Below, one piece after another: positions 1,883-18,804 of a stretch of DNA of 33,963 nt. The DNA is from Spirochaetaceae bacterium. GTDB taxonomy: Bacteria > Spirochaetota > Spirochaetia > SZUA-6 > Bin103. A program made the translations under genes and the position numbers. Where the stretch lies: the NCBI GenBank assembly GCA_028821475.1, contig JAPPGB010000153.1:1-33963 (forward strand). Reading direction: 5' to 3'. The notes beneath the pieces were generated by a model. That model made no database searches. It saw only the letters and a list, made by a program, of their open reading frames with translations, and was not told where the DNA came from. Position 1 is the stretch's first letter, and the number at the start of each line of letters is the position of its first letter.

Positions 1883-1919
1883 TTCGACGAATTCACGAAA
1901 AAACCGCAGCATTCACGAA
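1883..1919 (+). promoter_or_regulatory. Composite direct-repeat site A (candidate LytTR operator)
   Basis: ATTCACGAA occurs at 1891-1899 and again, identically, at 1911-1919, separated by 11 bp (20 bp period, about two helical turns). A related 8-mer, TTCGACGA, abuts the first copy. The arrangement of site B (4245-4283, opposite strand) is the same. Paired 9-mers about two turns apart are the usual form of LytTR-family targets. Assignment to the LytTR proteins in this window is inference. Confidence 0.5.
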
Positions 1920-2073
1920 CTTTCCCCAATATGTCACGGGAGGGTTGCTATCTTTGCTGCGGCGATCGCTCGAATCTACCAGATTCAGCGATTGGCTGCA
2001 GGAGAACAAAAATTGCCGCCGGGGCCCCCGGGTTGTTGCACAAGCCGGTTATCGTCAACCCCGGCGGCTTTTT
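1920..2073 (+). ncRNA. Possible small structured RNA ending in an intrinsic terminator
   Basis: Downstream of repeat site A lies a near-perfect hairpin at 1965-1992: ATCGCT-c-GAATCT, loop acc, AGATTC-AGCGAT. After it comes the GC-rich terminator with a T tract ending at 2073. No convincing reading frame covers the interval. A short transcript starting just after site A and ending at the terminator would be about 130-150 nt. The terminator is also well placed for the convergent pentapeptide gene, so the RNA is a hypothesis. No clear -35/-10 pair was found. Confidence 0.3.
2015..2073. terminator. Bidirectional Rho-independent terminator
   Basis: GCCGCCGGGG (2015-2024) pairs with CCCCGGCGGC (2059-2068). 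On the plus strand TTTTT follows directly. On the minus strand the stem is followed by AATTTTTG. It lies about 40 bp past the stop of the minus-strand pentapeptide gene and would end that transcript. It could also end any plus-strand transcript from the site A region. Confidence 0.75.
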
Positions 2074-2112
2074 CTGTCTTGCGCCGGTCCGTTGGTCAAC
2101 ACACGAACGCAC

Positions 2113-2676
2113 TCATGAGCCCAGGTAGCAGCCGGGAAGCCGCCTGCTGTCGTCGCAGCCAATCGTGTCTATCATGGTCGCGCCGTTCAGGATTGCGCTG
2201 CCGAGATATGCGTCGGCCAGGTTCACGTAGCTCAAGTTCGCTCCTCTGAGATCGGCGCCGTTGAGATTCGCATGGCTGAGGTCAGCGCCCGTGAGATCGG
2301 CACGAATCAGGGTAGCAGGCGGGCCGCCCTTGCCGGAGAGGTCCACCTTCCGCAGGTCGGCACGGGTCAGCGTTGCGGCGGTGAGGTCGACGTCGACCAG
2401 AGTCGCGCAGAACAGCGAAGCACCGGTCAGGTCGGCTCCCACCAGCGACACCCCCGTCAGATCGGCGTCAGTAAGGTCGGCATTGACCAGGTCAACACGG
2501 TTCAGGTTCAGGTTCGCCAGGCTTGCGTTCGCCAAGTCTGCCCCGCGGCAATCCGGAACGCAGTCGAGGGTCTGCGTCTCGCCGAACGCCGCGCCGAACA
2601 CAATCAGAACCGGAATCAGCAATCCGCAACGAAGTCCGCAACAAACAAGTCCGCAACAAACATTGTCGCTCATCAT
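2113..2676 (-). CDS. Secreted pentapeptide-repeat protein
   Basis: Probable exported right-handed quadrilateral beta-helix protein. About 16 consecutive A(D/N)LXX-type pentapeptides fill most of the chain (ADLANASLANLNLNRVDL, ADLTDADL, ADLTGASL, ADLSHANLNGADL, ANLSYVNLADAYL). The hydrophobic N-terminus (RCGLLIPVLIVFGAAFG) looks like a signal peptide or anchor. Cysteine pairs cap the repeat at both ends (CVPDC and CDDSRRLPGC) and may form disulfides outside the cytoplasm. The start is uncertain: ATG 2676 or 2673, with an in-frame TTG at 2706. None has a good Shine-Dalgarno. The n-region is Cys-rich because of a small DNA repeat there. It stands alone between LytTR gene 1, whose stop is at 2785, and the terminator at 2015-2073. 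Function unknown. Confidence 0.8.
   Translation of the reverse strand: MMSDNVCCGLVCCGLRCGLLIPVLIVFGAAFGETQTLDCVPDCRGADLANASLANLNLNRVDLVNADLTDADLTGVSLVGADLTGASLFCATLVDVDLTAATLTRADLRKVDLSGKGGPPATLIRADLTGADLSHANLNGADLRGANLSYVNLADAYLGSAILNGATMIDTIGCDDSRRLPGCYLGS
2633..2662. repeat. 15-bp perfect tandem duplication in the pentapeptide gene 5' end
   Basis: The unit agtccgcaacaaaca occurs twice in a row (2633-2647, 2648-2662), and a third degenerate copy lies just left at 2621-2632. The length is a multiple of three, so the frame is kept. It produces the CCGLV-CCGLR-CGLL pattern before the signal-peptide core. Confidence 0.8.
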
Positions 2677-2784
2677 GCCGACATTATCGGCACCGAACTG
2701 CCGCAATTTGGGTGATGTCCCAACGGTGAGGCGCTTTCGCTTGCATCGATAACCGCAAATTCGCGAATTCGCTTCTCCTGATCG

Positions 2785-3816
2785 CTAATCTGACGAACTC
2801 ACGTTCTGTTCCGGCGACTGCAATACCGTTTGAACCGCGACTCGGTGGCGGGCACTGATCGGCACGAGGTGGTCGCCGCTCAGCCGCAACATCAGCTTGC
2901 GGTCGCGCTTCGTCAATCCCCTCATGTGGTGGAAAGCAACCCAGTAGGAGCGGTGCACCTGGATACCCGCACCGCCGAGCTCGGCGATGGCCTCCGCGAA
3001 CCGCATCTTGATCAGCGCCGAATCCGTCGAGGTGCGCACGTGGATGTAGTGATCCTCACTCTTGAGGAAGATTACTTCGCTGCCAAACTCGGCAAGCGGC
3101 GACGCCGCCACTCTTTCGTCCCGGTCGTCTTGCGTACCGTCGGATTCCCGCGACGTGCGCCCCGGCTTCTGGGACTCTTGAGCGGGTGCCCCGTCCGGTT
3201 CGCGGCGTGCACCGGTCGCGGCACCCCCAGCGTCGGAGGTCTTGCTCGCACCTCCGGTCGTGGTGGAGGCGAACTCCGGGGATGTCTCGGCGCCAGCCCC
3301 GGCCTGATCGACCAGCTCGCCGGCGTGAGGGGCAGCCGTGACGGCGCTGTTGGTGTTGGAAACTCGAGCGGACGCGAGCGCGTGGCCGTGCCTGGTGCGC
3401 ACGTACACCAAGTACAGAAACAGAAGGTCGTACACCACCGCTACCGTTGCCACCTGAATGTATAACCGCGTCAGGCCGGCGGACGCCGAATAGTGCGGGT
3501 GCGCCAGTGTTTCTACCGTGTGCACGACCGCAGTGCATGGCAAGGACACGAATAGCGCCACCGCCGTCAGCGCCAGGGCCATGGTCAGCGCAGATTGCCG
3601 GCGCAAGAAGTATGCCGCCACCACGACTGCCGCATAACCGAGAGGCCAGCCGATAACGGCGTACAATGCACCGAATGCCAAGCGCTGCCCCGCGGTAAGC
3701 GCGTCATACGTCCCCATCGGCCCGAGCACCGCGAACGCCGCCACGGCCACCGCCACCATGACGATGGCGACCAGGATCGCTGGACGGCTCAGCATCTCCT
3801 TGTACACCGATCGCAT
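2785..3816 (-). CDS. Membrane-anchored LytTR-family transcription factor 1
   Basis: DNA-binding regulator tethered to the cytoplasmic membrane. The N-terminal half has four hydrophobic segments: AILVAIVMVAVAVAAFAV, LAFGALYAVIGWPLGYAAV, ALTMALALTAVALFV and a segment near VATVAVVYDLLFLYLVY. A Ser/Ala/Asp-rich linker of about 100 residues follows. The C-terminal ~100 residues are a LytTR domain (EVIFLKSEDHYIHVRT, LIKMRFAEAIAEL, VHRSYWVAFHHMRGL, LMLRLSGDHLVPIS). No response-regulator receiver domain is present. ATG 3816 gives M-x3-Y-x-EMLS, which aligns with the paralogues at 10867 and 13532. A GTG at 3954 would add 46 residues with no paralogue match and would run through the repeat motif. The copy is more diverged than the other two. 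The signal it senses is unknown. Confidence 0.88.
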   Translation of the reverse strand: MRSVYKEMLSRPAILVAIVMVAVAVAAFAVLGPMGTYDALTAGQRLAFGALYAVIGWPLGYAAVVVAAYFLRRQSALTMALALTAVALFVSLPCTAVVHTVETLAHPHYSASAGLTRLYIQVATVAVVYDLLFLYLVYVRTRHGHALASARVSNTNSAVTAAPHAGELVDQAGAGAETSPEFASTTTGGASKTSDAGGAATGARREPDGAPAQESQKPGRTSRESDGTQDDRDERVAASPLAEFGSEVIFLKSEDHYIHVRTSTDSALIKMRFAEAIAELGGAGIQVHRSYWVAFHHMRGLTKRDRKLMLRLSGDHLVPISARHRVAVQTVLQSPEQNVSSSD

Positions 3817-3925
3817 CGCGCCGCCTGCAGGCGAATTCACGTCGTGCAGCTTGAGTCCCACCACTCGCGCACTATCGTGACGCACCCGCTTCGCGAAATC
3901 AACTGCATCGACCCCAAACGCCGGC

Positions 3926-3957
3926 GAATTCGAACGTTCATTAAGCGAATTCACGAA
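3926..3957 (+). promoter_or_regulatory. Composite repeat site D, upstream of LytTR gene 1 (looser copy)
   Basis: GCGAATT leads into ATTCGAACG (3928-3936). After 12 bp comes a perfect ATTCACGAA (3949-3957). Close by, TTCACGTA is repeated in tandem at 3973-3980 and 3981-3988. The spacing is one base longer than at sites A-C and the first half is weaker. It sits 110-140 bp before the preferred ATG of LytTR gene 1, which suggests autoregulation (inference). Confidence 0.35.
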
Positions 3958-4540
3958 CGACCGTCGTGCAGTTTCACGTATTCACGTACGGGAAGCGCAG
4001 CCGGGCCCCGGACCGGTTTGTGGACACAAAGTACAATGCCCCGGCTAACGATGCCTGTACCTACCCATACTCCATTCGTAGCGCTGAAGCCGGGTTTGCG
4101 AGCTTGGAACACCTATACAGCAGAGGGAAATAGGTCCGCTGGGGGGCCATGTCGAAGTAGTGGGTATCCTGGCAGCGAGATACACCCCGGCGGCGCGTTT
4201 GAGAACACCATGGTACAGGCACCGCCGCGGGGCTGGAGCTGGGTAATTCGTGAATACAGTGTCATATTCGTCAATTCGCCAAATGGGACGCCGGTGGCAC
4301 CTTTGCAATCCACCAAAGGAGAGGCGGGAGCGGACACCAGTGCGACGAGCCGTGCACCAGCAGCATGTGCGACGGCGGTGCGGTAACGCTGCGCTCCCGC
4401 TACTCTCCGGCGGCGGTCCGGCAGCCATCCGGTGACCGCGGGCCGCCGCCCTGGCGGTGACCGCTGGAGCGCTACAGGGCGACGTTGCTTGTCTTCGGAA
4501 ACACCGACAACGGGCAACCGCGTCGGCGACTTGTAGGACT
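3955..4540. other. Long intergenic region upstream of LytTR gene 1
   Basis: About 590 bp with no convincing gene. Short open frames on both strands have no recognisable domain and no good start. It contains repeat site B and the tandem TTCACGTA pair. Near 4505-4530 a weak hairpin (CGCCGAC / GTCGGTG on the minus strand) is followed by only three T residues. That hairpin could poorly terminate the gene ending at 4541. The region is probably the regulatory region of the LytTR gene. Confidence 0.4.
4245..4283 (-). promoter_or_regulatory. Composite direct-repeat site B (candidate LytTR operator)
   Basis: Read on the minus strand: TTTGGCGA, then ATTGACGAA, 11 bp, then ATTCACGAA. This matches site A (TTCGACGA, ATTCACGAA, 11 bp, ATTCACGAA) in order, spacing and composition. 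It points towards LytTR gene 1, about 430 bp from its preferred start. Confidence 0.5.
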
Positions 4541-5035
4541 TCAGCATGGTCGGTTGCAGGCCGCAGTCTGACGGGATTCCTGGCGCAGCAAAACCAGGGA
4601 GGCGCCGAGGACCAGGGAGCCGTCGAGCGGTTCGCCGAATGGTGCGCGGTAGCCGACGGTGATTCCGATCCAGGAGTACACGTAGCCGGTAAGCTTCACG
4701 TCCAATCCCCACACCGTCCGTCGCTCGATCAGGTCATCCCCGCGCCACCGGCGATTGTTCTGGAAGCTGATGGCCAGGCTTGGGTAGAGATCGATCGGGG
4801 TGGCTACGTTGGCGCCGAGCGAGCCCGAGAATCGGGCCGCCCGCTCCCGGTCACTACGGCTGCCGCCCGCGTTGATTGCGGCCTCGACACCGAAGAGCCC
4901 GAACGTGTCGAGCAGCGACAGCGATAGCCCGACCGGCAGGAGGGGGACAAACTGGTAGCCGAGTGCGACGCCGGGTCCTTCGGCGAAGGTCACGCCGGAG
5001 ACGGCAACGAAGAGAATAACGGCTATACGACGCAT
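4541..5035 (-). CDS. Small exported beta-barrel-like (putative outer-membrane) protein
   Basis: 164 residues with a short Sec signal peptide (MRRIAVILFVAVSGVTFA, probable cleavage before EGP). The mature part is rich in alternating hydrophobic/polar, Gly- and aromatic-containing strands (GVALGYQFVPLLPVGL, SLGANVATPIDLYPSLAISF, VWGLDVKLTGYVYSWIGITVGY, DGSLVLGASLVLL). This pattern suggests a small eight-strand-type barrel. The chain does not end in the classic aromatic residue; it has a Cys-containing tail. ATG 5035 lacks an obvious Shine-Dalgarno but fits the signal peptide. Divergent from the zinc-ribbon gene at 5209. No specific family recognised. Confidence 0.65.
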   Translation of the reverse strand: MRRIAVILFVAVSGVTFAEGPGVALGYQFVPLLPVGLSLSLLDTFGLFGVEAAINAGGSRSDRERAARFSGSLGANVATPIDLYPSLAISFQNNRRWRGDDLIERRTVWGLDVKLTGYVYSWIGITVGYRAPFGEPLDGSLVLGASLVLLRQESRQTAACNRPC

Positions 5036-5155
5036 CGACGAACTTAGTTTGCCGCATCAGGCGGGTGCGGGCAATTGCTCTTCAGCTTGATTGGACCACA
5101 CTCGGCGCCGGCTCGGGCAGGTTGTGTTGGCGACGTTCGCAGGCAATGCGCGAGG

Positions 5156-5184
5156 TTGAGGAAGCGCTTGTCCTGCCCTATACT
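5156..5184 (+). promoter_or_regulatory. Sigma-70-type promoter of the zinc-ribbon gene
   Basis: TTGAGG (5156-5161), a 17-bp spacer, then TATACT (5179-5184). The expected start of transcription is near 5191, giving an untranslated leader of about 18 nt before the ATG at 5209. Confidence 0.6.
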
Positions 5185-5208
5185 GGGCAGACCCAAGAGG
5201 ATGGCGAG

Positions 5209-6144
5209 ATGATGCGGTACCGGCAATGTCGCAGCTGCAGCTACTGGGTGACCCGCGACGAACGGTTCTGTATCAACTGCGGCGTCTACCGGCCCTTTCA
5301 GTCGGGGCGCGGCCAGCGTTCCGCCTGGCTGGTGTTCACCACCATGCTCGGCGGCGTACTCGGCGGCAGCGTGTTCTACCGTCCCGAATCCAGCCTGCTC
5401 GTGTATGGCTGCATCGCCGGCGGTGCTACCGGTCTGGCCTGGGGACTGGGCCTGTTCGCCGAGGTCTCCGCCATCCTGCAGGGGCGCCGCCGCTCTCCCT
5501 CCCTGCAGACCAGCGAGTTGCGGCTGGCCGGCAGGCTGGCCGAGATCCTGCAGACCAAGCGGCAGGTGCGCGACCTGCTCGGCCGCCTGCGCGCTGAGGC
5601 CTCCACGGTAGCCGGCAGTCAACTCCTGACCGTCCTGCGCAAGGCGGAAGGCGCCGTCAACCGCGCCGTGCGCCGCTATACCGCGGAGCTGGCCAAGCTG
5701 GAACTGATCCGCTGGCGCAACGGGCTGGAGCCGCTGCTGCCGCAGCCGCAACCGGACGGCGGTCCGCATGCGAGCCCACGCGAGCGCCTGGACGAGATCC
5801 ACCGCCACCGGCAGCGCGGCCACCGACTACTGTCCGCGTGGCGCGGCGCCGGCCTGGACACGCCGGAGTTGGGCCGACACACCGTGCAGCAACTCCAGCG
5901 CTGGCTGGCCGCGTGCGACCGGCTCATCGAACGCACCATCGCGGAGCAGGCGCACGCCACCCTCAGCAGCATCGCCGCCGCGGAGTTGGTCCCGTGCGCC
6001 GACCCCCGGGTGGAGGCGGAACTGCACCGCCTGGACGCCGCCGGCGGCGACCTTGAACTCGACGAGCTGGAACAGGTACAGCACGCACTGGACCGCCTGC
6101 AGGCCAAGGAACAACTCGACCGCGAGTTCGACGCCCGCGGCTGA
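5209..6144 (+). CDS. Zinc-ribbon, two-TM, coiled-coil protein of unknown function
   Basis: 311 residues. A treble-clef or ribbon-like CX2C-X11-CX2C (CRSC ... CINC) lies in the first 30 residues and should bind zinc. Two hydrophobic Gly/Ala-rich segments follow (WLVFTTMLGGVLGGSVF, LVYGCIAGGATGLAWGLGLF), consistent with a membrane hairpin. The remaining ~200 residues are helical, charged and Leu-rich, with likely coiled coils (LAGRLAEILQTKRQVRDLL, DELEQVQHALDRLQAKEQLD). The ATG at 5209 is preferred: it places the zinc ribbon at the N-terminus, AGAGG lies just upstream, and a good promoter precedes it. Start sites further upstream would overlap that promoter. It converges on the MBL gene with an 11-bp gap. 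Function unknown. Confidence 0.75.
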   Translation: MMRYRQCRSCSYWVTRDERFCINCGVYRPFQSGRGQRSAWLVFTTMLGGVLGGSVFYRPESSLLVYGCIAGGATGLAWGLGLFAEVSAILQGRRRSPSLQTSELRLAGRLAEILQTKRQVRDLLGRLRAEASTVAGSQLLTVLRKAEGAVNRAVRRYTAELAKLELIRWRNGLEPLLPQPQPDGGPHASPRERLDEIHRHRQRGHRLLSAWRGAGLDTPELGRHTVQQLQRWLAACDRLIERTIAEQAHATLSSIAAAELVPCADPRVEAELHRLDAAGGDLELDELEQVQHALDRLQAKEQLDREFDARG

Positions 6145-6155
6145 CCAGGTAAGTG

Positions 6156-6803
6156 CTACAGGAAGGGGTTGTGGCGCTGTTCGGCGTGCAGGGTGGTGTG
6201 CTCGCCGTGTCCCGGTACCACGTACGACTCGCCGGGCAACTCGAACAGGCGCTGCTTGATCGACCTGATCAGCGCGTACGCATCGCCTCCCGGCAGATCG
6301 GTGCGGCCCACCGACTGGCGAAACAGCGTATCGCCCGCGAACAACAGCGGCTCCCCGGTCACCTCGGTATAGAAACAGCATGACCCGGGAGAGTGGCCGG
6401 GGGTGTGGATGGTGGTGAGCAGCTTGCGCCCGCCGAGCGCCACCTCGAAGCCCTCCTCGATGAACTGATCCACTTCGCCCGGCGGCTGCACCGGAATCCC
6501 GAACAGCAGGCCCTGCTCCTGCAACCGCCGGTACAACTCCTCGTCGTCCCGGTGCAGCAGGATCGGCACTCCGAGCCGGCGCTTGACCGCGTCGGATCCG
6601 CCGATGTGGTCGAAGTGGGCATGGGTGTGCAGGAGCTGCGTCACCTTCAGGCCGCGCTCGCCCACCGCCTGCAGCAGCGCCTCCGGGTCGTCGCCCGGAT
6701 CGATCACGATCGCCCGGCGGCTGTCCCGCTCATACACCAGCGAGCAGTTGCACCCCAGGCTCCCGATCGCAAACGTCTCCACCACCAGCGCCTCCGGACC
6801 CAT
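6156..6803 (-). CDS. MBL-fold hydrolase (glyoxalase II / YcbL-like)
   Basis: 215-residue metallo-beta-lactamase-fold enzyme, probably hydrolysing a thioester such as S-lactoylglutathione or a related small substrate in the cytoplasm. The dinuclear metal ligands are all present: THAHFDH (HxHxDH), the His in TPGHSPGS, the Asp in FAGDTLF and the His in VPGHGEHT. The length and the absence of a separate C-terminal helical domain fit the short YcbL-type glyoxalase II group better than canonical GloB. ATG 6803 (MGPEALVVETF) fits the family N-terminus. An ATG at 6845 would add 14 residues without a Shine-Dalgarno. No operon partner. Confidence 0.88.
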   Translation of the reverse strand: MGPEALVVETFAIGSLGCNCSLVYERDSRRAIVIDPGDDPEALLQAVGERGLKVTQLLHTHAHFDHIGGSDAVKRRLGVPILLHRDDEELYRRLQEQGLLFGIPVQPPGEVDQFIEEGFEVALGGRKLLTTIHTPGHSPGSCCFYTEVTGEPLLFAGDTLFRQSVGRTDLPGGDAYALIRSIKQRLFELPGESYVVPGHGEHTTLHAEQRHNPFL

Positions 6804-6904
6804 GCGCCGCCCACCAAAACCTGCTTCCGCCACATCCCACAGCATAACAGACACGGGACAAACCCCCGAGCCGCCCGCGCAGTCCGGCTCGCGGGCGCCG
6901 AGCC

Positions 6905-7195
6905 TCAGCGGATGCCCTTCGTCACAGCGCCACTCGCTTCTTCCAGGCCGTGCTGCCCGGCGCTGTCGGCGTAGACGGTCGCACCGGAGTCCAGCACCTG
7001 CAACTTGCGTTTCCCGCAACGGATACATCGCCAAAACTGAACGCGGCCGCCGGGATCCGTATGCACGTACATCATGAGCACCCAGCGATGGTAAGCCGTC
7101 TCGGAACAACCGCCCTCTCGAGGCGACCACGCGGCATCGGGTATCGCAGCGATGGACCGCATCGCCCGCCAGGTCGCGTTGTCAGCGGCCGCCAT
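6905..7195 (-). CDS. Possible small hypothetical protein with a CxxC motif
   Basis: 96 codons from ATG 7195. The best protein-like stretch is HRWVLMMYVHTDPGG followed by WRCIRCGKRKLQVL, where CIRC could be half of a zinc ribbon. No second Cys pair follows, so any zinc site would be incomplete. It ends about 100 bp before the MBL gene and lies on the same strand. It could be a fragment of a zinc-ribbon protein or a chance open frame in GC-rich DNA. No family recognised. Confidence 0.3.
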   Translation of the reverse strand: MAAADNATWRAMRSIAAIPDAAWSPREGGCSETAYHRWVLMMYVHTDPGGRVQFWRCIRCGKRKLQVLDSGATVYADSAGQHGLEEASGAVTKGIR

Positions 7196-7532
7196 GCCCG
7201 AACCAATAGCCATGTGGTCGCCGCCTCCATGGCTCCGGGTACGCACTGCCGCATTTGCCACGGTCGAAGCGGGACGCCATACCGTTACCGCCGTCCGCGC
7301 CAGACCGTGCGCGGTCAGATTTGCGCCGATCCATGCGCCGATCAATCGGATTCAAGCTGCAGCGTACCTGACAGCACTGCCGCGTACGGCGAGGGAGTTC
7401 TTGCCCCTGGACGTCCACGCCGAATAAGGATTAGGTTGGTGGACAGCGTCGTGGCACGCGGGCAGCAACGGACGAGTGCGGTTGACAGCCGCCCTCCGCC
7501 GGCGGCCTGGCGTGGAAGGATTGCCACGAGGC

Positions 7533-7601
7533 GGGGCACCGTGGCGGAAGGAAGGGGCAGAAGGGTTCTTGAGTTCACGTCCCTCCGCCGCCACGTGCCT
7601 C
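7533..7601. repeat. Imperfect palindromic repeat element, copy 1
   Basis: GGGGCAC-c-GTGGCGG on the left pairs with CCGCCACGTGCC on the right around a loop holding AAGGGGCAGAAGG and GTTCACGTCCCTC. The order and internal words are shared with copy 2, which starts 115 bp later. The element is about 70 bp and resembles a REP-like dispersed hairpin. Confidence 0.55.
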
Positions 7602-7647
7602 CTGTTCCGACTCCAGGGGCTTGACATGGCGCGATGAACAACACAGC

Positions 7648-7717
7648 GGGGCACCGCGGCGTGGGGAGGGGCAGAAGGTCTTACGTTCACGTACCCTCAC
7701 CACAGCAACGGTGCCCC
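7648..7717. repeat. Imperfect palindromic repeat element, copy 2
   Basis: The ends are exact inverted repeats: GGGGCACCG (7648-7656) and CGGTGCCCC (7709-7717). An inner arm pair, GTGGGGAGGG / CCCTCACCAC, mispairs at one position. The loop carries GGGGCAGAAGGTCTT and GTTCACGTACCCTC, as in copy 1. It lies just past the stop of the 41-residue membrane protein gene and may shape its mRNA 3' end. Confidence 0.6.
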
Positions 7718-7751
7718 GACATCTTCATCACGTAACGCCGGATCTTGCCGG

Positions 7752-7877
7752 CTAGCGGCCCTGCCGTCGCCGCTTCCTGATACGGAAGCAGTAGACCTCA
7801 AGCAGGGCCGCGGCTATCCCCAGCAGCACGATGGCCCCTGCGACCAGGTAGCCAACGTCGGGGGTGGTATTCAACAT
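7752..7877 (-). CDS. 41-residue single-pass membrane protein
   Basis: A small frame with the full signature of a real membrane microprotein. ATG 7877 is preceded by taggaaacggga, with AGGA about 7 nt upstream. A short polar N-terminus (MLNTTPDVG) leads into one uninterrupted hydrophobic segment (YLVAGAIVLLGIAAALLEVY), then a strongly basic tail (RIRKRRRQGR). The charge pattern predicts N-out/C-in topology. Size and layout resemble CcmD-like or other accessory microproteins, but no cytochrome-maturation genes are nearby, so no function is assigned. It sits between the hairpin repeats and a structured region, on the same strand as the large lipoprotein gene but beyond that gene's terminator. 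Confidence 0.5.
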   Translation of the reverse strand: MLNTTPDVGYLVAGAIVLLGIAAALLEVYCFRIRKRRRQGR

Positions 7878-8107
7878 TCCCGTTTCCTACTACCGCGGCC
7901 AGGCACGGTGCGGTGAGAATGAGACGGGACTGGCCCGAGGGTGTGACGGCCGCTTATCATACTGGACCCTCCCCGAGTCAGTCCCGCTGATGGTCGTGTG
8001 CTTGTGCTCGTATCTACCTGAGTTGTGCGGCTCCGTGCCTCATGCCGATGCTGATAGCGGGATTGTGCACGATACCAACAGCGCTCCGGCAGCCACAAGA
8101 AAGAAAA
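7878..8107. other. Structured intergenic region with nested inverted repeats
   Basis: No gene recognised. AGGCACGG (7901-7908) pairs with CCGTGCCT (8033-8040). Inside it, CGGGACTG (7925-7932) pairs with CAGTCCCG (7979-7986), and inside that GAGGG (7937-7941) with CCCTC (7967-7971). On the minus strand this would form the 5' leader of the 41-residue membrane protein gene. It could be a regulatory RNA element or a protein-binding palindrome cluster. No known riboswitch motif was recognised. Confidence 0.3.
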
Positions 8108-8167
8108 GGGCCACCAGACGCGAGCGGGCAGGAGGTCTAGACCATACCGCACTTGCTCTGGTGGCCC
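8100..8167 (-). terminator. Intrinsic terminator of the large lipoprotein gene
   Basis: Minus strand, 24 bp past the TAG at 8191-8193. GGGCCACCAGA (8167 to 8157) pairs perfectly over 11 bp with TCTGGTGGCCC (8118 to 8108), followed by TTTTCTTTCTT. The loop is long (38 nt) and can fold further. Confidence 0.8.
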
Positions 8168-8190
8168 CGATTTTCACGCTTTGCTAACTC

Positions 8191-10224
8191 CTACGGCTCA
8201 TCCACTTCGTTGACACGAACCGAAAGGTCCTTGCTGTTTTCGGTCAGCGGCGTACCTGCGGTTTCAGCCCCCCAAGCCTTGTAGGTAACCGTGATGGTTA
8301 CGTTACCGGGCTTGAGAACCTGGAAGTTGATAGTGTGAGTGCCGGGGTCGGTGCCGCTTCCATCTTCCTGCAGCAGACCGATACCCGGAGTTCCCGCCTT
8401 GCCCGCAGGTCCGATCTTCACGGTTTCCGGATCGGATGAAGTAACCACGTAGCAGGACATTTCCGCGGTTCCCTCTTCGAGCCTGTCGGCGGGAACCGGC
8501 GTAGCCAGACCGACGCCGCAGATCTTGTTGTGGTTGGCCCCGTCCGCACCGGCCATGTCTTGTGCAAACTTGAACCCGGCTTCGGCGTTTGCGTCTCCGG
8601 TGAACACCAACTGGTGCCAGCCTCGCCGGTTCGGCGGGTCGGGGTCGTTGTGGTTGTCAGGGTCATTCCTGCGATAGTCCACGTTCCTAGGATTGTGGAA
8701 GTTGAAGTTCTGCGGCGCATCGAACTGCCCCACGTCGTACCTCCAACTGAGCACCGGCCGCAACTCCACGCGCAACAGCAAGGAGTTGTCATCGGCCGAA
8801 CGTGCGCGAGTGTCATCGTCGTCCGTTGCACTGAAGGTGAAGGTAACCACATCCCCCGTGTTATGCAGCACGTCAATCAACACCTCGGTAGTCCCGTCAG
8901 CGATCTCGTTGTAACCTACCACGATAGCCCGATCGGGATGACTCGACTTGGCAGTGAACCTGATGTCGTCACCGTCGGGATCCGTGAAGTAGTCGTTGAG
9001 GTTGAGTGCCGCCGCGTCAGCCGCCTTGCTCACCACGATCTTGTAGAGCGGTTCCTCGGGGCTGTTCACGAATATCGGATCGCCATCGTCATCCTTGAAC
9101 AGCGGATCGGCTCCGTCATCCGGGTAATCCGGCGTCTCCAGAGTAGCCGCTGCCGTGGAAGCCATCGCCAACTGATGCAGTCCGGGGTTGTCACCCTTGC
9201 GCTTCGGAGCACGGTTGTTGATGTGTATCTCGAATGTCTCCACCAATGCGTTGGTGTCCGAGTTGCGCACTTCGACGGTGGCGTCTCCCTTCGCTATGGC
9301 CAGAACCTCCCAGTAGCCGTCCTTCTTCGTTACGGTCAACAGATTCTGGTTCCCGCTCCTGACGGTGGTGCCGTCCGGAGCCATCACCTTGCAGGTGTCA
9401 CCAACGTCGAGCGTGTCGCAGTCGGTGCTGGCACCCGTGGTCTCTTCCTGGTCTCCGTCGCCGACCGTGACCTCGAACGACAGCTCGACCGACTCTCCAT
9501 TTGCATCGGTCGCGGTCACGGTAATCGTTGCGGTACCGTCGGCCACACCGGTCACGGTCACCACGCTGCCTTCGACAGCTACGGTCGCCACGTCGGTGTC
9601 GGACGACTGAGCGCTGTAGGTGAGATCCGTACCGTCGACGCTGTCTCCAACGTTGACCGAAGTAGTTTCGCCGGCGCCTACCGTTATGCCATCGATGGTT
9701 CCGACAATAGTGGGTCCGGTCGCTGCCTCGACGACGAAGAGCCTCAGAACGACGCTGGCCGACAGGTCATCGGGGTCCGTCGCAGTAACCGTGACATCGG
9801 CTCTGCCACTTGCCACGGCGGTCACGTACAAGTGAGTGTAAGTGCTTGTTACGCCGTCCTCGGTAACCTGTACCTGTACCAGTTCTGCCGTTGCGACTTC
9901 CTCGTTCGACGAAGTCACGCTGAACTGCAGCGGCGCGGTCCCGGCGGTGGCGTCAGGGTCAGAGAACCACCTATCGACCTGGTGCCAGTCGTACGTGTCG
10001 TCACTCACCTCAAGGGTGTACGCGCCGTGCGCTCTGACGCCGTCTGCGGTGAGAGCCGGTGCTACCCCTCCGGACTCGCCGGGATCACCGGTGTCTCCCT
10101 GGTCTCCCTGGTCTCCCTCTTCGCCAGTTGGCCCTACGGCGCCCTGGCAAGCCACCATCGCGAACCCCAGGGCCGCGACCATCATCAGCAGCGCAATTCG
10201 TTTGATTGCGCCCCATTCCTTCAT
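8191..10224 (-). CDS. Large surface lipoprotein with collagen-like stalk and Ig/cadherin-like domains
   Basis: 677-residue exported protein. The signal peptide (IKRIALLMMVAALGFAMVAC) ends in a lipobox-like VAC. The mature Cys is followed at once by eight Gly-X-Y triplets (GAVGPTGEEGDQGDQGDTG and on), a short collagen-like stalk. Several beta-sandwich modules of about 80-110 residues follow. They are Asp/Thr/Val-rich and end in TVTATDPDD- or TITVTATDANG-type strands, typical of Ig-like/BIg2 and cadherin-like repeats. One holds DYFTDPDGDDIRF, a calcium-type motif. ATG 10224 has GGAGGG six bases upstream and gives a normal signal peptide. An in-frame ATG at 10326 has an even better AGGAGG but would add 34 polar residues before the signal. 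It is probably a surface adhesin or scaffold. Monocistronic, with repeat site C upstream. Confidence 0.85.
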   Translation of the reverse strand: MKEWGAIKRIALLMMVAALGFAMVACQGAVGPTGEEGDQGDQGDTGDPGESGGVAPALTADGVRAHGAYTLEVSDDTYDWHQVDRWFSDPDATAGTAPLQFSVTSSNEEVATAELVQVQVTEDGVTSTYTHLYVTAVASGRADVTVTATDPDDLSASVVLRLFVVEAATGPTIVGTIDGITVGAGETTSVNVGDSVDGTDLTYSAQSSDTDVATVAVEGSVVTVTGVADGTATITVTATDANGESVELSFEVTVGDGDQEETTGASTDCDTLDVGDTCKVMAPDGTTVRSGNQNLLTVTKKDGYWEVLAIAKGDATVEVRNSDTNALVETFEIHINNRAPKRKGDNPGLHQLAMASTAAATLETPDYPDDGADPLFKDDDGDPIFVNSPEEPLYKIVVSKAADAAALNLNDYFTDPDGDDIRFTAKSSHPDRAIVVGYNEIADGTTEVLIDVLHNTGDVVTFTFSATDDDDTRARSADDNSLLLRVELRPVLSWRYDVGQFDAPQNFNFHNPRNVDYRRNDPDNHNDPDPPNRRGWHQLVFTGDANAEAGFKFAQDMAGADGANHNKICGVGLATPVPADRLEEGTAEMSCYVVTSSDPETVKIGPAGKAGTPGIGLLQEDGSGTDPGTHTINFQVLKPGNVTITVTYKAWGAETAGTPLTENSKDLSVRVNEVDEP

Positions 10225-10326
10225 GTTATCCCTCCGCATTGTGAGATTAAGCCCGTCGCGATGGCGCACAGCCGCACTGCGCGCCCTATCAGTACAAAAT
10301 TGGGAATGTCGGTATACGTCGTACAT

Positions 10327-10866
10327 TAAACCTCCTGCCCCGACATGGATTATTACGGTCCGATTGACAACCGCATTTCCTGCTCGCGTGCCACGAGGCT
10401 AACAAAATTCCGGTCAGTGACAAACGATCCTGTGCGTGAAGAAGGCGTTAAGTTCGTGAAACCCGACAAATATTCGCGAACCGGGAATCGTCCTGATTCA
10501 CGTCCGATAATGTGTTCGCGGAACCGCTGAATCGCGAACATGAATGCGCGCTTACGCTGAAACGCGAACGATCAGACAACAATCCATGGCAGCTAATACT
10601 TGATTTGGAGGCGCTCATTGTTCGCCGCGGCGGTCTCGAAGTGAAACGTTACGCAAGACTGTCGCGAATTTCTGTCGCTCACGGACACGTGGGCTGGCAT
10701 CGTATGCCATGCCGTGTTCCGGAGATTGCTCGCTTGTTGGAATGAAGACACCCTGCGATCACGAGTCGAAGCTGCTTGACGAAGTCAGCCGGATAGGGAA
10801 CACTCGGAGTTCATGTCCACGGCACGATCGTGAACGTACCGATAGGATAAGTGCTCAGGAATAGTG
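10327..10866. other. Divergent intergenic region between the lipoprotein and LytTR gene 2
   Basis: About 540 bp, clearly more A/T-rich than the neighbouring genes. No convincing gene is present; a 77-codon plus-strand frame at 10512-10745 has no domain and no Shine-Dalgarno. It is crowded with TTCGCGAA/TTCACG-like words: 10453, 10473, 10497, 10515, 10531, 10561 and 10672. This suggests a multi-site control region serving both divergent genes. Confidence 0.4.
10452..10480 (-). promoter_or_regulatory. Composite direct-repeat site C (candidate LytTR operator)
   Basis: Read on the minus strand: GTTCGCGAA, 11 bp, TTTCACGAA, then CTT, as at site A (ATTCACGAA, 11 bp, ATTCACGAA, CTT). It points at the lipoprotein gene, 126 bp from the ATG at 10326 and 228 bp from the ATG at 10224. 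Further half-sites lie to its right. Confidence 0.5.
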
Positions 10867-11922
10867 ATGACACCGACTACAGCAACGCGCCGGCGGAACG
10901 GCAAGCATGTACAGGAATCGATGCCGCATGGTTACCGGGAAATGCTCAGTGGGCACACGGTCCGCGTCAACGTAGCCTTGAGTGGCGCCTTCGTCTTGGT
11001 CCTGGCGCTCGTGGGTCCGGTTGGTTCTTTCGATGCTCTCGGGCTGCCGGAACGCTTGGCGTTCGGTTTGCTGTATGCCTGTGTGTGTTGGCCCATTTTC
11101 TATTCGCAGATAGTGGTGACGCTGTACTTCTTTCGCTTCCGGAGGCCGTTGCAGATCGGGATAGCCTTGACGATCGCGACGATGTGTTCGGCCCTTCCGG
11201 CGAGCGCCGTGGTAATCGCGGTCGAATCTCTGGCGCACCCCTCCTATTCCAAGAAGCTCGACATCCTGCAATTGTACTTCCTGGTCACCGCCCAGGCGTG
11301 GGCCTGGACCATGCTGTCCTGGTACCTGCTACGACAGCGAGTCAGACACACGGCGGCCGCGGAGCCCACCGGCGCGGTCGGCACCGTGCTTGCGACGCCC
11401 AGCGAGGCAAACGGGGCGACGCCTTCCGAGGGTGGGGACTCGACTGGGTACGAGCCGTCAGGTTCCAGCGGCACATCGCCTGACACATCGCCTGCAGTTG
11501 GCGTTCAGGACGACTCCAAGGACCCGCGGGCAGGTAATGGTGGCGGGCCGAAGGCGGAACAGGCCCTCGTGGTCCCGCAGCGATCCAACGCGCCACGCCC
11601 GGCTGACCGGCCGCGTGCTCCTCTCCTGAGACTGCTGCCGGAGAGGCTGGGTACCGACCTCATCTACATAAAGAGCGAGGATCACTATCTCGAAGTGCAC
11701 ACCACCGTCGGTTCGAGTCTGATAAAGATGCGGTTCTCGGACGCGGTGGCCGAGCTCAGCGACCATGGGATGCAGGTGCACCGCAGCTATTGGGTGGCAA
11801 CCCGTCACGTCACCCGATCGGTGAGGAGCGGCAAGCGGACAATGCTGCGCCTCACAGGAGACCACAAGGTACCCGTGAGCGTGACCCACCTGCCTGCCGT
11901 GCGTGCCGCCCTGCGCCGCTGA
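10867..11922 (+). CDS. Membrane-anchored LytTR-family transcription factor 2
   Basis: Four predicted membrane helices (VRVNVALSGAFVLVLALV; LAFGLLYACVCWPIFYSQI; IGIALTIATMCSALPASAV; LQLYFLVTAQAWAWTMLSW) are followed by a polar, Pro/Ser/Gly-rich linker. A C-terminal LytTR DNA-binding domain comes last (DLIYIKSEDHYLEVHTT, MRFSDAVAEL, VHRSYWVATRHVTRSV, LRLTGDHKVPVS). The last ~95 residues are almost identical to those of LytTR protein 3, whereas the membrane half has diverged. ATG 10867 has AGGA six bases upstream and is chosen; ATG 10921 (MPHGYREML) would match the shortest paralogue start. No receiver or kinase domain is present, so the membrane part or the linker must carry any sensing function. 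It is transcribed divergently from the lipoprotein gene. Confidence 0.9.
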   Translation: MTPTTATRRRNGKHVQESMPHGYREMLSGHTVRVNVALSGAFVLVLALVGPVGSFDALGLPERLAFGLLYACVCWPIFYSQIVVTLYFFRFRRPLQIGIALTIATMCSALPASAVVIAVESLAHPSYSKKLDILQLYFLVTAQAWAWTMLSWYLLRQRVRHTAAAEPTGAVGTVLATPSEANGATPSEGGDSTGYEPSGSSGTSPDTSPAVGVQDDSKDPRAGNGGGPKAEQALVVPQRSNAPRPADRPRAPLLRLLPERLGTDLIYIKSEDHYLEVHTTVGSSLIKMRFSDAVAELSDHGMQVHRSYWVATRHVTRSVRSGKRTMLRLTGDHKVPVSVTHLPAVRAALRR

Positions 11923-12254
11923 CTGCGGCGCAGCCTCATCCAGCGCCACGCTCAAGGATCACGGTGTGGCTGCTTCTACCATTTCTGGTAGTGACGTACA
12001 TGACCGTTTGATCCAGAATCAGGGATCAATGAGCATTCGGTTCCTACGGTACCTGGGGTGGATCCTTTGACGTTCCACCAATCGTGTCGCCCCACAGCGG
12101 GGCTTGGGTGGCATCGTGTATCCGCAACCGGGCGTCGCCGCCACCGCCGTGCTAGGCTGGTCGACACCGGCACTGCCGGTAGCAGTGGCGCTGCGGCGGC
12201 GAAGGCCGGCAGTGCGCCAATGACGCCGTGGCAGCGAGGAGCGCAGGATCCGGC
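11923..12254. other. Intergenic region between LytTR gene 2 and the LuxR-type gene
   Basis: About 330 bp without a gene. Two small perfect hairpins lie close together: CTACCA-tttc-TGGTAG (11976-11991) and TGATCC ... GGATCA (about 12010-12028). Neither has a T tract, so neither is a good terminator. The composite repeat seen elsewhere is absent here. The promoter of the LuxR-type gene probably lies in the last ~150 bp. Confidence 0.3.
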
Positions 12255-13433
12255 ATGAGCCGGCAGGCGAGGTTCGAGCGCATCCTCGCCTCTTTGCATG
12301 AGGCAATGTTCGACGACTCCCACTGGGTAGAAACGTCTGCTCTCATCGACGAGGCCTGCGGAGCCAAGGGCAATCACCTGGTGTTCCAAACGACATCACG
12401 GGACGACGACATCGCGCCCCTCTTCATGCGTTTCTGCTACCGCGGAGAACATCGCAGCGAATGGGAACGGGAGTACCTTGCCAACGACTACCCAGCGGAT
12501 GAGCACCTGCCACGCCTGCGACAACTGCCGGGCGATAGGATTGTCCACGTCACCGAACTTCTCTCCGAGGCGCAGTTGAAGCACTCGGCGACCTACAACG
12601 AGATAATGCCGCGCTACCACTTCCAGGACGGGTTGAATGTCCGCCTCGATGGACCGAGGGGCTCGCGAATCGTCTGGGGGATCGCAGATCCGAGTGACGG
12701 CAAGGGGTGGTCCACCGATCAGGTCGACATGGTCGCGCGACTGCTGCCGCACGTTCGTCAGTTCGTTCGGATGCGTCACGCATTGGTCGAAGCCCGTGGG
12801 CTGCAGACGACGCTTGAGCGGCTCCTCGACAACACGCGGGCCGGGGTGATTCAACTCGACCGACAGAAACGCGTCGTGGCAGCGAACGACCGTGCCCGGG
12901 AGCTGCTCTGCCAAGGGACTCTGCTATCCGATCGCGCCGGCCTGCTCCACCTCGCGGTACCGATCGACAACTCCCACCTTCAGCGGCTGTTGGATCGCGC
13001 TCTTCCACGTTTCGGAGGACAGGGCGAGAGCGGATCGATGGTGGTGAGGCACCCAAACAGCTACCCGCCATTGATCGCACTGCACGTCACGCCGGTTGAG
13101 GACCGGGACACCGGCTTCCGGTCTGTGCGCCCGGCTGCGCTGGTGCTGGCCATCGAACCGAATAACCAGGGACGAATTGATCGAAAGGTGCTCAGAACGA
13201 ATCTCGGGCTGTCGGCGGCCGAGAGCGAAGTGGCGGCCCTGGTCGCCGAGGGAAAGTCGATCCGGGAAGTCCGAGGGACGATCGGGCGAGGGGAACATAC
13301 GGTGCGCTGGCACATCAAGCAGGCTTACGCGAAGCTCGGGGTGTCCTGCCGGGCGGAATTCACGAAGCTCGTGCAAGCGGTCGGTGGGATTCTTCCAAGA
13401 GACGAAGGGGCTCTCGACCGAAGTGACGGATAG
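12255..13433 (+). CDS. LuxR-type HTH transcriptional regulator with a PAS-like domain
   Basis: 392 residues. The N-terminal third starts SRQARFERILASLHEAMFDDSHW, an opening common in a group of one-component LuxR regulators. A PAS-like segment (LERLLDNTRAGVIQLDRQKRVVAANDRA, about residues 175-230) suggests a small-molecule or redox sensing pocket. The C-terminus is a GerE/LuxR HTH: LGLSAAESEVAALVAEGKS, a recognition-helix region EHTVRWHIKQAYAKLG, and EFTKLVQ. ATG 12255 has AGGA eight bases upstream. The next gene, LytTR 3, starts about 100 bp later on the same strand, so the two may be co-transcribed. A broken paralogue lies at 1405-1735. The ATTCACGAA word at about 13354 lies inside the coding sequence and is probably chance. 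Confidence 0.85.
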   Translation: MSRQARFERILASLHEAMFDDSHWVETSALIDEACGAKGNHLVFQTTSRDDDIAPLFMRFCYRGEHRSEWEREYLANDYPADEHLPRLRQLPGDRIVHVTELLSEAQLKHSATYNEIMPRYHFQDGLNVRLDGPRGSRIVWGIADPSDGKGWSTDQVDMVARLLPHVRQFVRMRHALVEARGLQTTLERLLDNTRAGVIQLDRQKRVVAANDRARELLCQGTLLSDRAGLLHLAVPIDNSHLQRLLDRALPRFGGQGESGSMVVRHPNSYPPLIALHVTPVEDRDTGFRSVRPAALVLAIEPNNQGRIDRKVLRTNLGLSAAESEVAALVAEGKSIREVRGTIGRGEHTVRWHIKQAYAKLGVSCRAEFTKLVQAVGGILPRDEGALDRSDG

Positions 13434-13531: not shown

Positions 13532-14587
13532 GTGACCGACACTTCCGGCGGTGCCGTGAGAGCTCGGCCGGCGACGATGGAGCGTGGCTACGTCGAAATG
13601 CTGAGCGCATGCATGGTGAAGGTCACGATCGCCACCTGCCTTGCGGTAGCAGCCGTGTATTCACTGATCGGTCCCCTCGGCTCCTACTCGGTAGCGAAAC
13701 TCTTGGATCGCTGGGCATACGGCGTGCTCTGCGCCGTCGAGGGATGGCCCGTGCACTACTCACTCACAGTCGTGACGCTCTATTTGCTGCGTTCTCGAAA
13801 GCCTGCCGAAGCACTGGCGGGTGTGGTGACGGCGGCGTTGATCGTGGCGCTCCCGAATACGGCGTGGACGCTGATGATCGACCGCTTGGTCATCCGCACC
13901 CTGCCAACCGAGCTCGGCCCGCTCGAGGTATATCTGCTGGTCGCGAGCACGACCGTGGTCTGCAGCGTTCTCTATTTCTACGTGATGTGGCTACGCATCA
14001 GGCATGGCCGGTCTGCCACGGATGCCGGTCGTGGCCGGGCGGCGCCCGCCGATGCGGCAGCCGAGCCGCTCGGAACGACCGACACGGGCGAAGACAAGAC
14101 CGAACAACATCGCTCGGAACCCAACTACCCGTCGCCGGCCATTGCACCCGACGGTGCCTCGGCCGAGGCTCAGGCCGAAACTGCGGATTCGCAGGTGCAA
14201 CCAGGAGACGAGATGCCGGCGGCGGAACAGAGACCTGCCGACCCACGTGAACTCGCTCTTCACCGGCCCGCCTGGCGGGTCGGCACCGTGCTGCAACTGC
14301 TGCCTGATCGGCTGGGAACGGACCTCGTCTACATCAAGAGCGAGGACCACTACCTCCAAGTGCACACCACGGTTGGCTCAAGCCTCATCAAGATGCGGTT
14401 CTCGGACGCGGTGGCCGGGCTCGGCGACCGCGGCATCCAGGTGCACCGCAGTTACTGGGTCGCTACCCGCCACGTGACCAAGGCGGTGCGCAGCGGCAAG
14501 CGCACGCTGCTGCGCCTCACCGGGGACCACAAGGTTCCGGTGAGCGTTACCCACGTACACGCCGTGCGCGCCCTCCTCGCCCGCTGA
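13532..14587 (+). CDS. Membrane-anchored LytTR-family transcription factor 3
   Basis: Same architecture as proteins 1 and 2. Four hydrophobic helices (VTIATCLAVAAVYSLIGPL; AYGVLCAVEGWPVHYSL; ALAGVVTAALIVALP; LEVYLLVASTTVVCSVLYFYV) lead into a linker of about 100 residues rich in Ala, Glu and Pro. A LytTR domain follows (DLVYIKSEDHYLQVHTT, MRFSDAVAGL, VHRSYWVATRHVTKAV, LRLTGDHKVPVS). The LytTR domain differs from that of protein 2 at only a handful of positions, pointing to recent duplication or conversion of the DNA-binding end. The GTG at 13532 and the ATG at 13577 (MERGYVEML) are both possible, and neither has a strong Shine-Dalgarno. It follows the LuxR-type gene and is probably in its operon. 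Confidence 0.88.
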   Translation: MTDTSGGAVRARPATMERGYVEMLSACMVKVTIATCLAVAAVYSLIGPLGSYSVAKLLDRWAYGVLCAVEGWPVHYSLTVVTLYLLRSRKPAEALAGVVTAALIVALPNTAWTLMIDRLVIRTLPTELGPLEVYLLVASTTVVCSVLYFYVMWLRIRHGRSATDAGRGRAAPADAAAEPLGTTDTGEDKTEQHRSEPNYPSPAIAPDGASAEAQAETADSQVQPGDEMPAAEQRPADPRELALHRPAWRVGTVLQLLPDRLGTDLVYIKSEDHYLQVHTTVGSSLIKMRFSDAVAGLGDRGIQVHRSYWVATRHVTKAVRSGKRTLLRLTGDHKVPVSVTHVHAVRALLAR

Positions 14588-18097: not shown

Positions 18098-18355
18098 ATG
18101 GGCATGATCAAGGTGAGTACCGCCGAGTTGAAGTCTCGGCTCGGAAAGTACCTCGGGATGGTGCGGGCCGGAGCGACAATCGACATCACCTCGTACCGGC
18201 AGAGCGTTGCCAGGCTGGTACCGGCCGTCGAGGAGGAGTTGCTCATCGAAGAACCGACCGAACCTGCCGAAGCGCTTGCCCGGCTCGACCGCTTGCCGTC
18301 CGGCAGACCGATTCCGGGAGTAGCCGCGCTGCTGGCCGACCGCAGGCGGCGATGA
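18098..18355 (+). CDS. Phd/YefM-family antitoxin (pair 1)
   Basis: 85 residues. The N-terminal DNA-binding fold is clear: IKVSTAELKSRLGKYLGMVRAGATIDIT, then RQSVARLVPA, the usual end of the Phd/YefM core. The C-terminal tail (EELLIEEPTEPAEALARLDRLPSGR) would wrap and neutralise the toxin. ATG 18098 or the internal ATG 18104 could be used. The stop overlaps the toxin start as ATGA at 18352-18355, giving translational coupling. A palindrome just upstream is the probable operator. Confidence 0.88.
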   Translation: MGMIKVSTAELKSRLGKYLGMVRAGATIDITSYRQSVARLVPAVEEELLIEEPTEPAEALARLDRLPSGRPIPGVAALLADRRRR

Positions 18356-18804
18356 CGGTCTACCTCGACACGTCGGTGGTGCTGAGTTGGTTGCTCAACC
18401 AGGATCCGTCGATCCGGGAGTGGGGACTCTGGCAGGCCGCCTACACCAGCGAGATCTGCCGGGTCGAGTTTCACCGGACCATCGACCGGCTCCGCCTCGG
18501 CGGCGACCTCGATGATCGCGAGCGTGTGTTCCTGCACGAGCGGTTCACCACGTTCTGGAAGTCCGCGCACCGGGTGCGCGTGTCCGCCTCGCTCCTCACC
18601 CGGGCAAGCCAATCCTACCCAACCGTCGTCGGGACGTTGGATGCCATCCACCTGGCAAGTGCGCTCGTGGTCCACGAGCGACGCAACCGCCGGATCGACG
18701 AGTTTCTTACCCACGACGGGCAGTTGGGGACGGCCGCCCGCGCCGTGGGGTTTACCGTGCGGGGCGTAGCCGAGGAGAACGATTCCGTCGCCACCGGGTG
18801 CTGA
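18352..18804 (+). CDS. PIN-domain toxin ribonuclease (VapC-like, pair 1)
   Basis: 150 residues. The PIN-domain acidic residues are in place: the Asp in VYLDTSVVLSWLL, the Glu in EICRVEFHRT, the Asp in TLDAIHLASA and the Asp in FLTHDGQLG. These coordinate magnesium for RNA cleavage. The start overlaps the antitoxin stop. The C-terminus extends about 15 residues past the usual end (VAEENDSVATGC). The next gene begins 9 bp downstream on the same strand, so the acetyltransferase may be co-transcribed. Confidence 0.88.
   Translation: MTVYLDTSVVLSWLLNQDPSIREWGLWQAAYTSEICRVEFHRTIDRLRLGGDLDDRERVFLHERFTTFWKSAHRVRVSASLLTRASQSYPTVVGTLDAIHLASALVVHERRNRRIDEFLTHDGQLGTAARAVGFTVRGVAEENDSVATGC

Follow-up and report, generated by a model that had tools for sequence, protein, structure and literature searches.

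Intergenic sites around a group of LytTR regulator genes in an uncultured spirochaete (Spirochaetaceae bacterium, assembly GCA_028821475.1) repeat related 9-bp words at a fixed distance, which raises the question of whether these sites are operators and, if so, which regulator reads them. The window, that is, the whole stretch of DNA analysed (33,963 nt, contig JAPPGB010000153.1, below C153), is the 34-kb source contig, which was scanned whole; the genome comprises 5.73 Mb in 183 contigs.

Genes and repeated sites of the LytTR island

Three of the eight LytTR genes of the genome lie on this contig, and all three encode proteins with four transmembrane (TM) helices and a C-terminal LytTR domain; every aligned paralogue likewise combines an N-terminal membrane part with a C-terminal LytTR domain. 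In LytTR gene 1 (w1; 2785-3816, minus strand; Pfam LytTR, 3.3e-11) the four helices are followed by a disordered linker and the LytTR domain. The predicted model of w1 places the helices at residues 11-31, 42-70, 76-105 and 115-160 and leaves a linker of about 80 residues disordered; the membrane part is confident, and the overall pTM is 0.48. Comparison of this four-TM part with solved structures yielded no matching fold. LytTR gene 2 (w2; 10921-11922, plus strand; 1.4e-14) has the architecture of w1 according to the alignment, and LytTR gene 3 (w3; 13577-14587, plus strand; 6.9e-14) has a LytTR domain close to that of w2. The two are sisters in the tree (support 99/98) and probably bind the same sites, their LytTR domains being nearly identical.

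A LuxR-type (GerE) regulator with a PAS domain is encoded between w2 and w3 (12228-13433, plus strand), its GerE match lying slightly under the curated cut-off. The other neighbours are a large Ig-like (Big_2) lipoprotein (8191-10224, minus strand), whose lipobox, ...MVACQG, was read from the sequence, and a pentapeptide-repeat protein (2113-2706, minus strand) with a lone TTCGCGAA half-site upstream (2760). Elsewhere on the contig we noted an intergenic sequence of about 55 bp present in two imperfect copies at 7505-7700 (GGGGCACCGYGGCG...GGGGCAGAAGG...GTTCACGT...CCCTC), probably an old duplication; by eye, a possible short membrane peptide of about 40 aa at 7740-7880 (minus strand, start MLNTTPDVGYLVAG); and, also by eye, a toxin-antitoxin-like pair at 18098-18804 (plus strand), in which a PIN-type protein follows a short Phd-like antitoxin.

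Three intergenic sites have the 9-N11-9 layout described in an earlier note on this DNA, which is confirmed here apart from a shift of one base in the coordinates of the second and third. Site A (1891-1919, plus strand; ATTCACGAA-N11-ATTCACGAA) is a perfect repeat and the best match in the genome, and lies 5' of a putative small RNA. Site B (4247-4275, minus strand; ATTGACGAA-N11-ATTCACGAA) lies 5' of LytTR gene 1, at a distance of about 430 bp. Site C (10433-10481, minus strand), flanked by the lipoprotein gene (minus strand) and LytTR gene 2 (plus strand), is a triple repeat, GTTCGCGAA-N11-TTTCACGAA-N11-CTTCACGCA: to the two-half core at 10453-10481 a third half, CTTCACGCA, is added in phase 20 bp further on, at 10433-10441. 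The start codon of the lipoprotein gene is about 210 bp downstream. The three sites have only the 9-mers and the 20-bp period in common; their spacers are unrelated. When half-sites on the same strand with at most one mismatch were paired in the intergenic DNA of the contig, a spacing of 20 bp occurred four times and spacings of 8, 23, 31, 40 and 60 bp once each. Such an arrangement, two or three imperfect repeats of 8-13 bp with their centres about 20-21 bp apart, is that of LytTR direct-repeat operators.

Two further elements of the earlier description fared less well. An additional upstream 8-mer at A and B is present (TCGACGAA at 1884-1891 and TTGGCGAA at 4275-4282), yet the two are only loosely alike. 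Site D (3924-3957, plus strand; 110-140 bp 5' of the ATG of LytTR gene 1), described as a copy with an N12 spacer, proved to have a single half ATTCACGAA (3949-3957), the direct repeat there being of another word, GCGAATTC, with a 21-bp period; it is doubtful that D is a clean member of the set.

Each site was also inspected for promoter elements. Hexamers resembling a -10 element lie 29-31 bp past the proximal half of all three sites and of the sister-species site described below, two of them good (TATCTT at 1949-1954, plus strand, 29 bp after A; TACCAT at 4210-4215, minus strand, 31 bp after B) and two weak (TAGCCT at C and AATTGT at the sister site). An equally good hexamer at the -10 offset of site A is found at 5.5% of intergenic positions. 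None of the sites showed a consensus sigma-70 promoter, and scores were poor; this counts against reading them as operators, and poor scores are expected where an activator is needed.

Downstream of A, the stretch 1957-2075 (plus strand) could encode a structured RNA of about 115 nt, with a 5' hairpin, a GC-rich terminator hairpin and a T run; its predicted folding energy is -65.4 kcal/mol (z -6.7 against shuffles). It matched no Rfam family and was not found in the related genomes G001 and G002. A/T runs flank the terminator hairpin, which reads in the minus direction too and might serve as terminator of the convergent pentapeptide gene as well; transcription of a short structured RNA from this position is thus only plausible.

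Rarity in the genome and recurrence in a sister species

The word ATTCACGAA occurs five times in C153 (14.7 per 100 kb), with one copy in coding DNA (13358), versus a single copy in 292 kb from other contigs (0.34 per 100 kb). TTCACGAA is enriched too (7 versus 0.9 expected, Poisson P 5e-5). Scanning the genome with at most three mismatches over 18 fixed positions gave four matches, all on the 34-kb contig, while the reversed-pattern control gave none. The genome-wide scan proposed in the earlier note thus placed the sites solely around the LytTR genes and the lipoprotein gene of the island, and no random spread was seen. A degenerate form, YYSRCGAA-N12-YYSRCGAA, has exactly three exact matches in the genome, A, B and C; it was designed after the sites of the sister species G002 were known and hence provides no independent test for that genome. 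With one mismatch allowed, its specificity was lost (50 and 51 matches versus 27 and 25 in the control).

The number of matches expected depends on the background model. Modelled as an order-2 Markov chain, the intergenic DNA of the contig is predicted to contain 0.0006 matches with at most three mismatches, compared with the four observed, and the same type of model trained on a whole-genome sample predicts about three per genome at exactly three mismatches. The weight therefore lies on the two matches with zero and one mismatch and on the confinement to a single contig, not on the raw count.

An initial scan for related loci found none. LytTR genes are present in two of the four genomes of the genus and family examined, the source genome and G002 (Spirochaetaceae bin103, same genus, 4.8 Mb), whose assembly we take to be sponge-derived, and among 61 related genomes only these two have good relatives of the LytTR protein. 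Used unchanged, the pattern gave four matches in the 4.8 Mb of G002, two of them 43 bp apart on contig C65. There they form a site with four half-sites, ATCCGCGAA-N11-CTTCACGAA-N14-ACTGACGAA-N11-ATCCACGAA, spaced by 20, 23 and 20 bp; 64 bp downstream is the ATG of the gene for a secreted Calx-beta protein of 1361 aa. The closest homologue of w1 in G002 (gC65) is 9 kb from this site and has a weaker, one-mismatch pair about 100 bp upstream. G001 and G003, both without LytTR genes, gave 0 and 1 matches, and matches in G003 were dismissed as unrelated background since this genome has no LytTR gene. That just one sister genome has LytTR genes counts against the operator reading. A profile search found alphaproteobacterial relatives of the island proteins; no clear tandem operator was seen upstream of distant relatives in Rhodospirillales, Defluviicoccus and Binatia.

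Likeness to known LytTR systems and weighing of explanations

On the reverse strand, AAAGTTCGT and TAAGTTCGT fit the classical LytTR consensus, a fit limited to half-sites A2 and C2. The earlier note held that the words differ from the published consensus; they appear instead to resemble those of RcoM (TTCNNGCA) and CoxC (TTNNNGCN), which are direct repeats 18-21 bp apart occurring in triplets (PMC11347149), and that of AlgR (CCGTTCGTC), with which the opposite strand shares GTTCGT (PMC4064291). The third half of C, C3 (TTCACGCA), agrees with the RcoM word at 6 of 6 positions and TTCACGAA at 5 of 6 (PMC11347149). A hallmark of LytTR operators is direct repetition at a distance of about two helical turns (PMC4064291, PMC11347149, PMC6193735).

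Among proteins, a close parallel is HigX of Caulobacter crescentus, a four-TM LytTR protein proposed to be a 'fused LRS', with a four-helix bundle and a low-complexity linker; it is the best-studied case of a LytTR domain tethered by four helices, in which the membrane part is needed for regulation and envelope genes are affected (PMC13384398). The island proteins also combine four TM helices, a low-complexity linker and a C-terminal LytTR domain, and, just as HigX targets are biased to the envelope, the island has a surface lipoprotein. The HigX ChIP motif, however, is an abutted inverted repeat (ATGTTASC-GSTACCAT) with sites genome-wide (PMC13384398), whereas the island, in a spirochaete, has 20-bp direct repeats at one locus; the inverted motif counts against reading direct repeats as operators of four-TM LytTR regulators. 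In geometry the sites match those of LytTR Regulatory Systems (LRS, such as HdrRM/BrsRM), where 9-bp direct repeats with a spacer of 11-13 bp stand a few bp before the -35 element and serve autoregulation, and where the words diverge from the LytTR consensus; LRS-like LytTR proteins with TM segments also occur in Bacteroides (PMC6193735). Shared features are the 9-bp repeats, the N11 spacer, the spacing of the -10-like hexamers and a site before the regulator's own gene. LRS, however, have a separate membrane inhibitor protein and a soluble regulator, whereas the island regulators unite the two parts, TM helices and LytTR domain, in a single protein, and no separate inhibitor gene was identified for them.

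CoxC, a membrane-bound one-component LytTR regulator, senses CO via a seven-TM MHYT domain, and RcoM via haem (PMC11347149). Their three 8-bp direct repeats every 18-21 bp recall the triple repeat of C, but the island proteins have four helices, no MHYT match and no haem domain, and most half-sites of the island end in GAA, not GCA. In the AgrA-RNAIII system, LytTR direct repeats precede two targets, the promoter of the regulator itself and a regulatory RNA, in likeness to the repeats before a regulator gene and the putative RNA of the island; AgrA, however, is a cytoplasmic two-component regulator, and the putative island RNA is unrelated to RNAIII.

From this evidence we consider it likely that A, B and C are tandem operators of the membrane-anchored four-TM LytTR regulators of the island, forming a local HigX-like regulon of the 'fused-LRS' kind, and the word repeated every 20 bp is, given the similar site before a surface-protein gene in the sister species, very probably a docking site for such regulators. 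Two or three LytTR domains would occupy successive half-sites of 8-9 bp ([N]YYSRCGAA) on one face of the DNA, every 20 bp or two helical turns, beside weak promoters. LytTR gene 1 would be switched via B in an autoregulatory manner, the surface lipoprotein and possibly the divergent LytTR gene 2 via C, and the short structured RNA via A. Operator B does precede w1 as in LRS autoregulation, with a putative promoter, and the weaker pair before gC65 in G002 is a parallel case; B's distance of about 430 bp from the ATG counts against this reading. The interpretation put forward in the earlier note gains support from the clustering in the genome scan and from the similar site in G002, which adjoins the gene of a surface protein and has a LytTR gene nearby. 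Activation is slightly favoured over repression by a position directly upstream of -35, as in LRS; CoxC provides a precedent for repression.

Genuine operators might instead be bound by a different regulator, either the LuxR/PAS protein or a direct-repeat binder of the OmpR/PhoB or MerR/BldC type encoded elsewhere. A LuxR-type gene does lie inside the island, TTCGCGAA is itself palindromic and other families bind direct repeats, but we regard such a binder as unlikely. LuxR boxes are inverted repeats, and OmpR-type units recur every 10-11 bp, whereas no such word is seen at the repeat midpoints here. The sites in G002 lie near a LytTR gene, genomes of the genus and family without LytTR genes are also without the site cluster, and the geometry agrees with that of LytTR operators (PMC11347149, PMC6193735). 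The LuxR/PAS protein might bind the sites in addition, as a second factor.

It is very improbable that the words play no regulatory role and are remnants of a mobile element or of a repeat dispersed between genes: lone half-sites (TTCACG, AATTCG) are scattered in the intergenic DNA of the contig, but the lack of further copies in 5.73 Mb largely refutes such an origin, and the dissimilar spacers and the recurrence in the sister species count against it too. Least credence of all is given to chance, by which AT-rich intergenic DNA of a GC-rich genome would yield such words. The pattern was indeed picked after the contig had been viewed, but the low expectation from the contig's intergenic DNA and the 20-bp phasing refute this origin, and the G002 cluster was found with the pattern unchanged.

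Paralogues and possible operator words of their own

On contig C79 of the source genome, the four-TM LytTR gene oC79 is preceded by GTCCACGAA, 31 bp, GTCCACGAA, 20 bp and AACCGCGAA, a looser relative of the island operator. Its neighbours encode two lipoproteins, a giant cadherin-like protein and a histidine-kinase-like protein; the adjoining giant protein has cadherin-like/Calx-beta repeats (locus L039, 11336-19960, minus strand). An enrichment of TTCACG on C79 was rejected as a sign of operators, being due to coding repeats of the giant adhesin. The cases of oC79, the island lipoprotein and the secreted protein of G002 suggest that some four-TM LytTR genes adjoin surface-protein genes.

The orthologous pair oC161/gC58a has a conserved upstream footprint (L038, 10210-10340; L044, 8720-8850) in which two copies of CCCGAA are separated by about 60 bp; TACACT/TACTAT, likewise conserved, follows about 26 bp past the proximal copy (spacing by eye). 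This different word hints at private words specific to paralogues. LytTR paralogues on C62 of G002 (L046) and on C167 of the source genome (L041) have in common an upstream GAATGCTATGCTAT-like promoter stretch. We also considered a recognition code, since an Asp preceding the invariant His (in w1, w2, w3, oC79 and gC65) tracked the operator word across 18 paralogues, and dropped it, because Asp is frequent in remote LytTR proteins too, at loci without the sites, and because the five proteins form one weakly supported group (68/73). Tentatively, four-TM LytTR genes may have multiplied in the genus (8-10 per genome), each with its own diverged word in the same 20-bp geometry and each switching only its own neighbourhood: the gene of the regulator, that of a surface protein and, in this island, that of a small RNA.

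The geometry of LytTR operators was already known; new here are candidate direct-repeat operators of fused membrane-LytTR regulators as a local regulon in a spirochaete. They provide a concrete candidate for the DNA bound by LytTR regulators anchored in the membrane, whose mode of action from there is unclear, and, for uncultured spirochaetes of the sponge type, would connect such regulators with surface proteins and perhaps with a regulatory RNA. The 18 paralogues in two species with readable operators may serve as a set for decoding how the beta-strand LytTR domain reads DNA.
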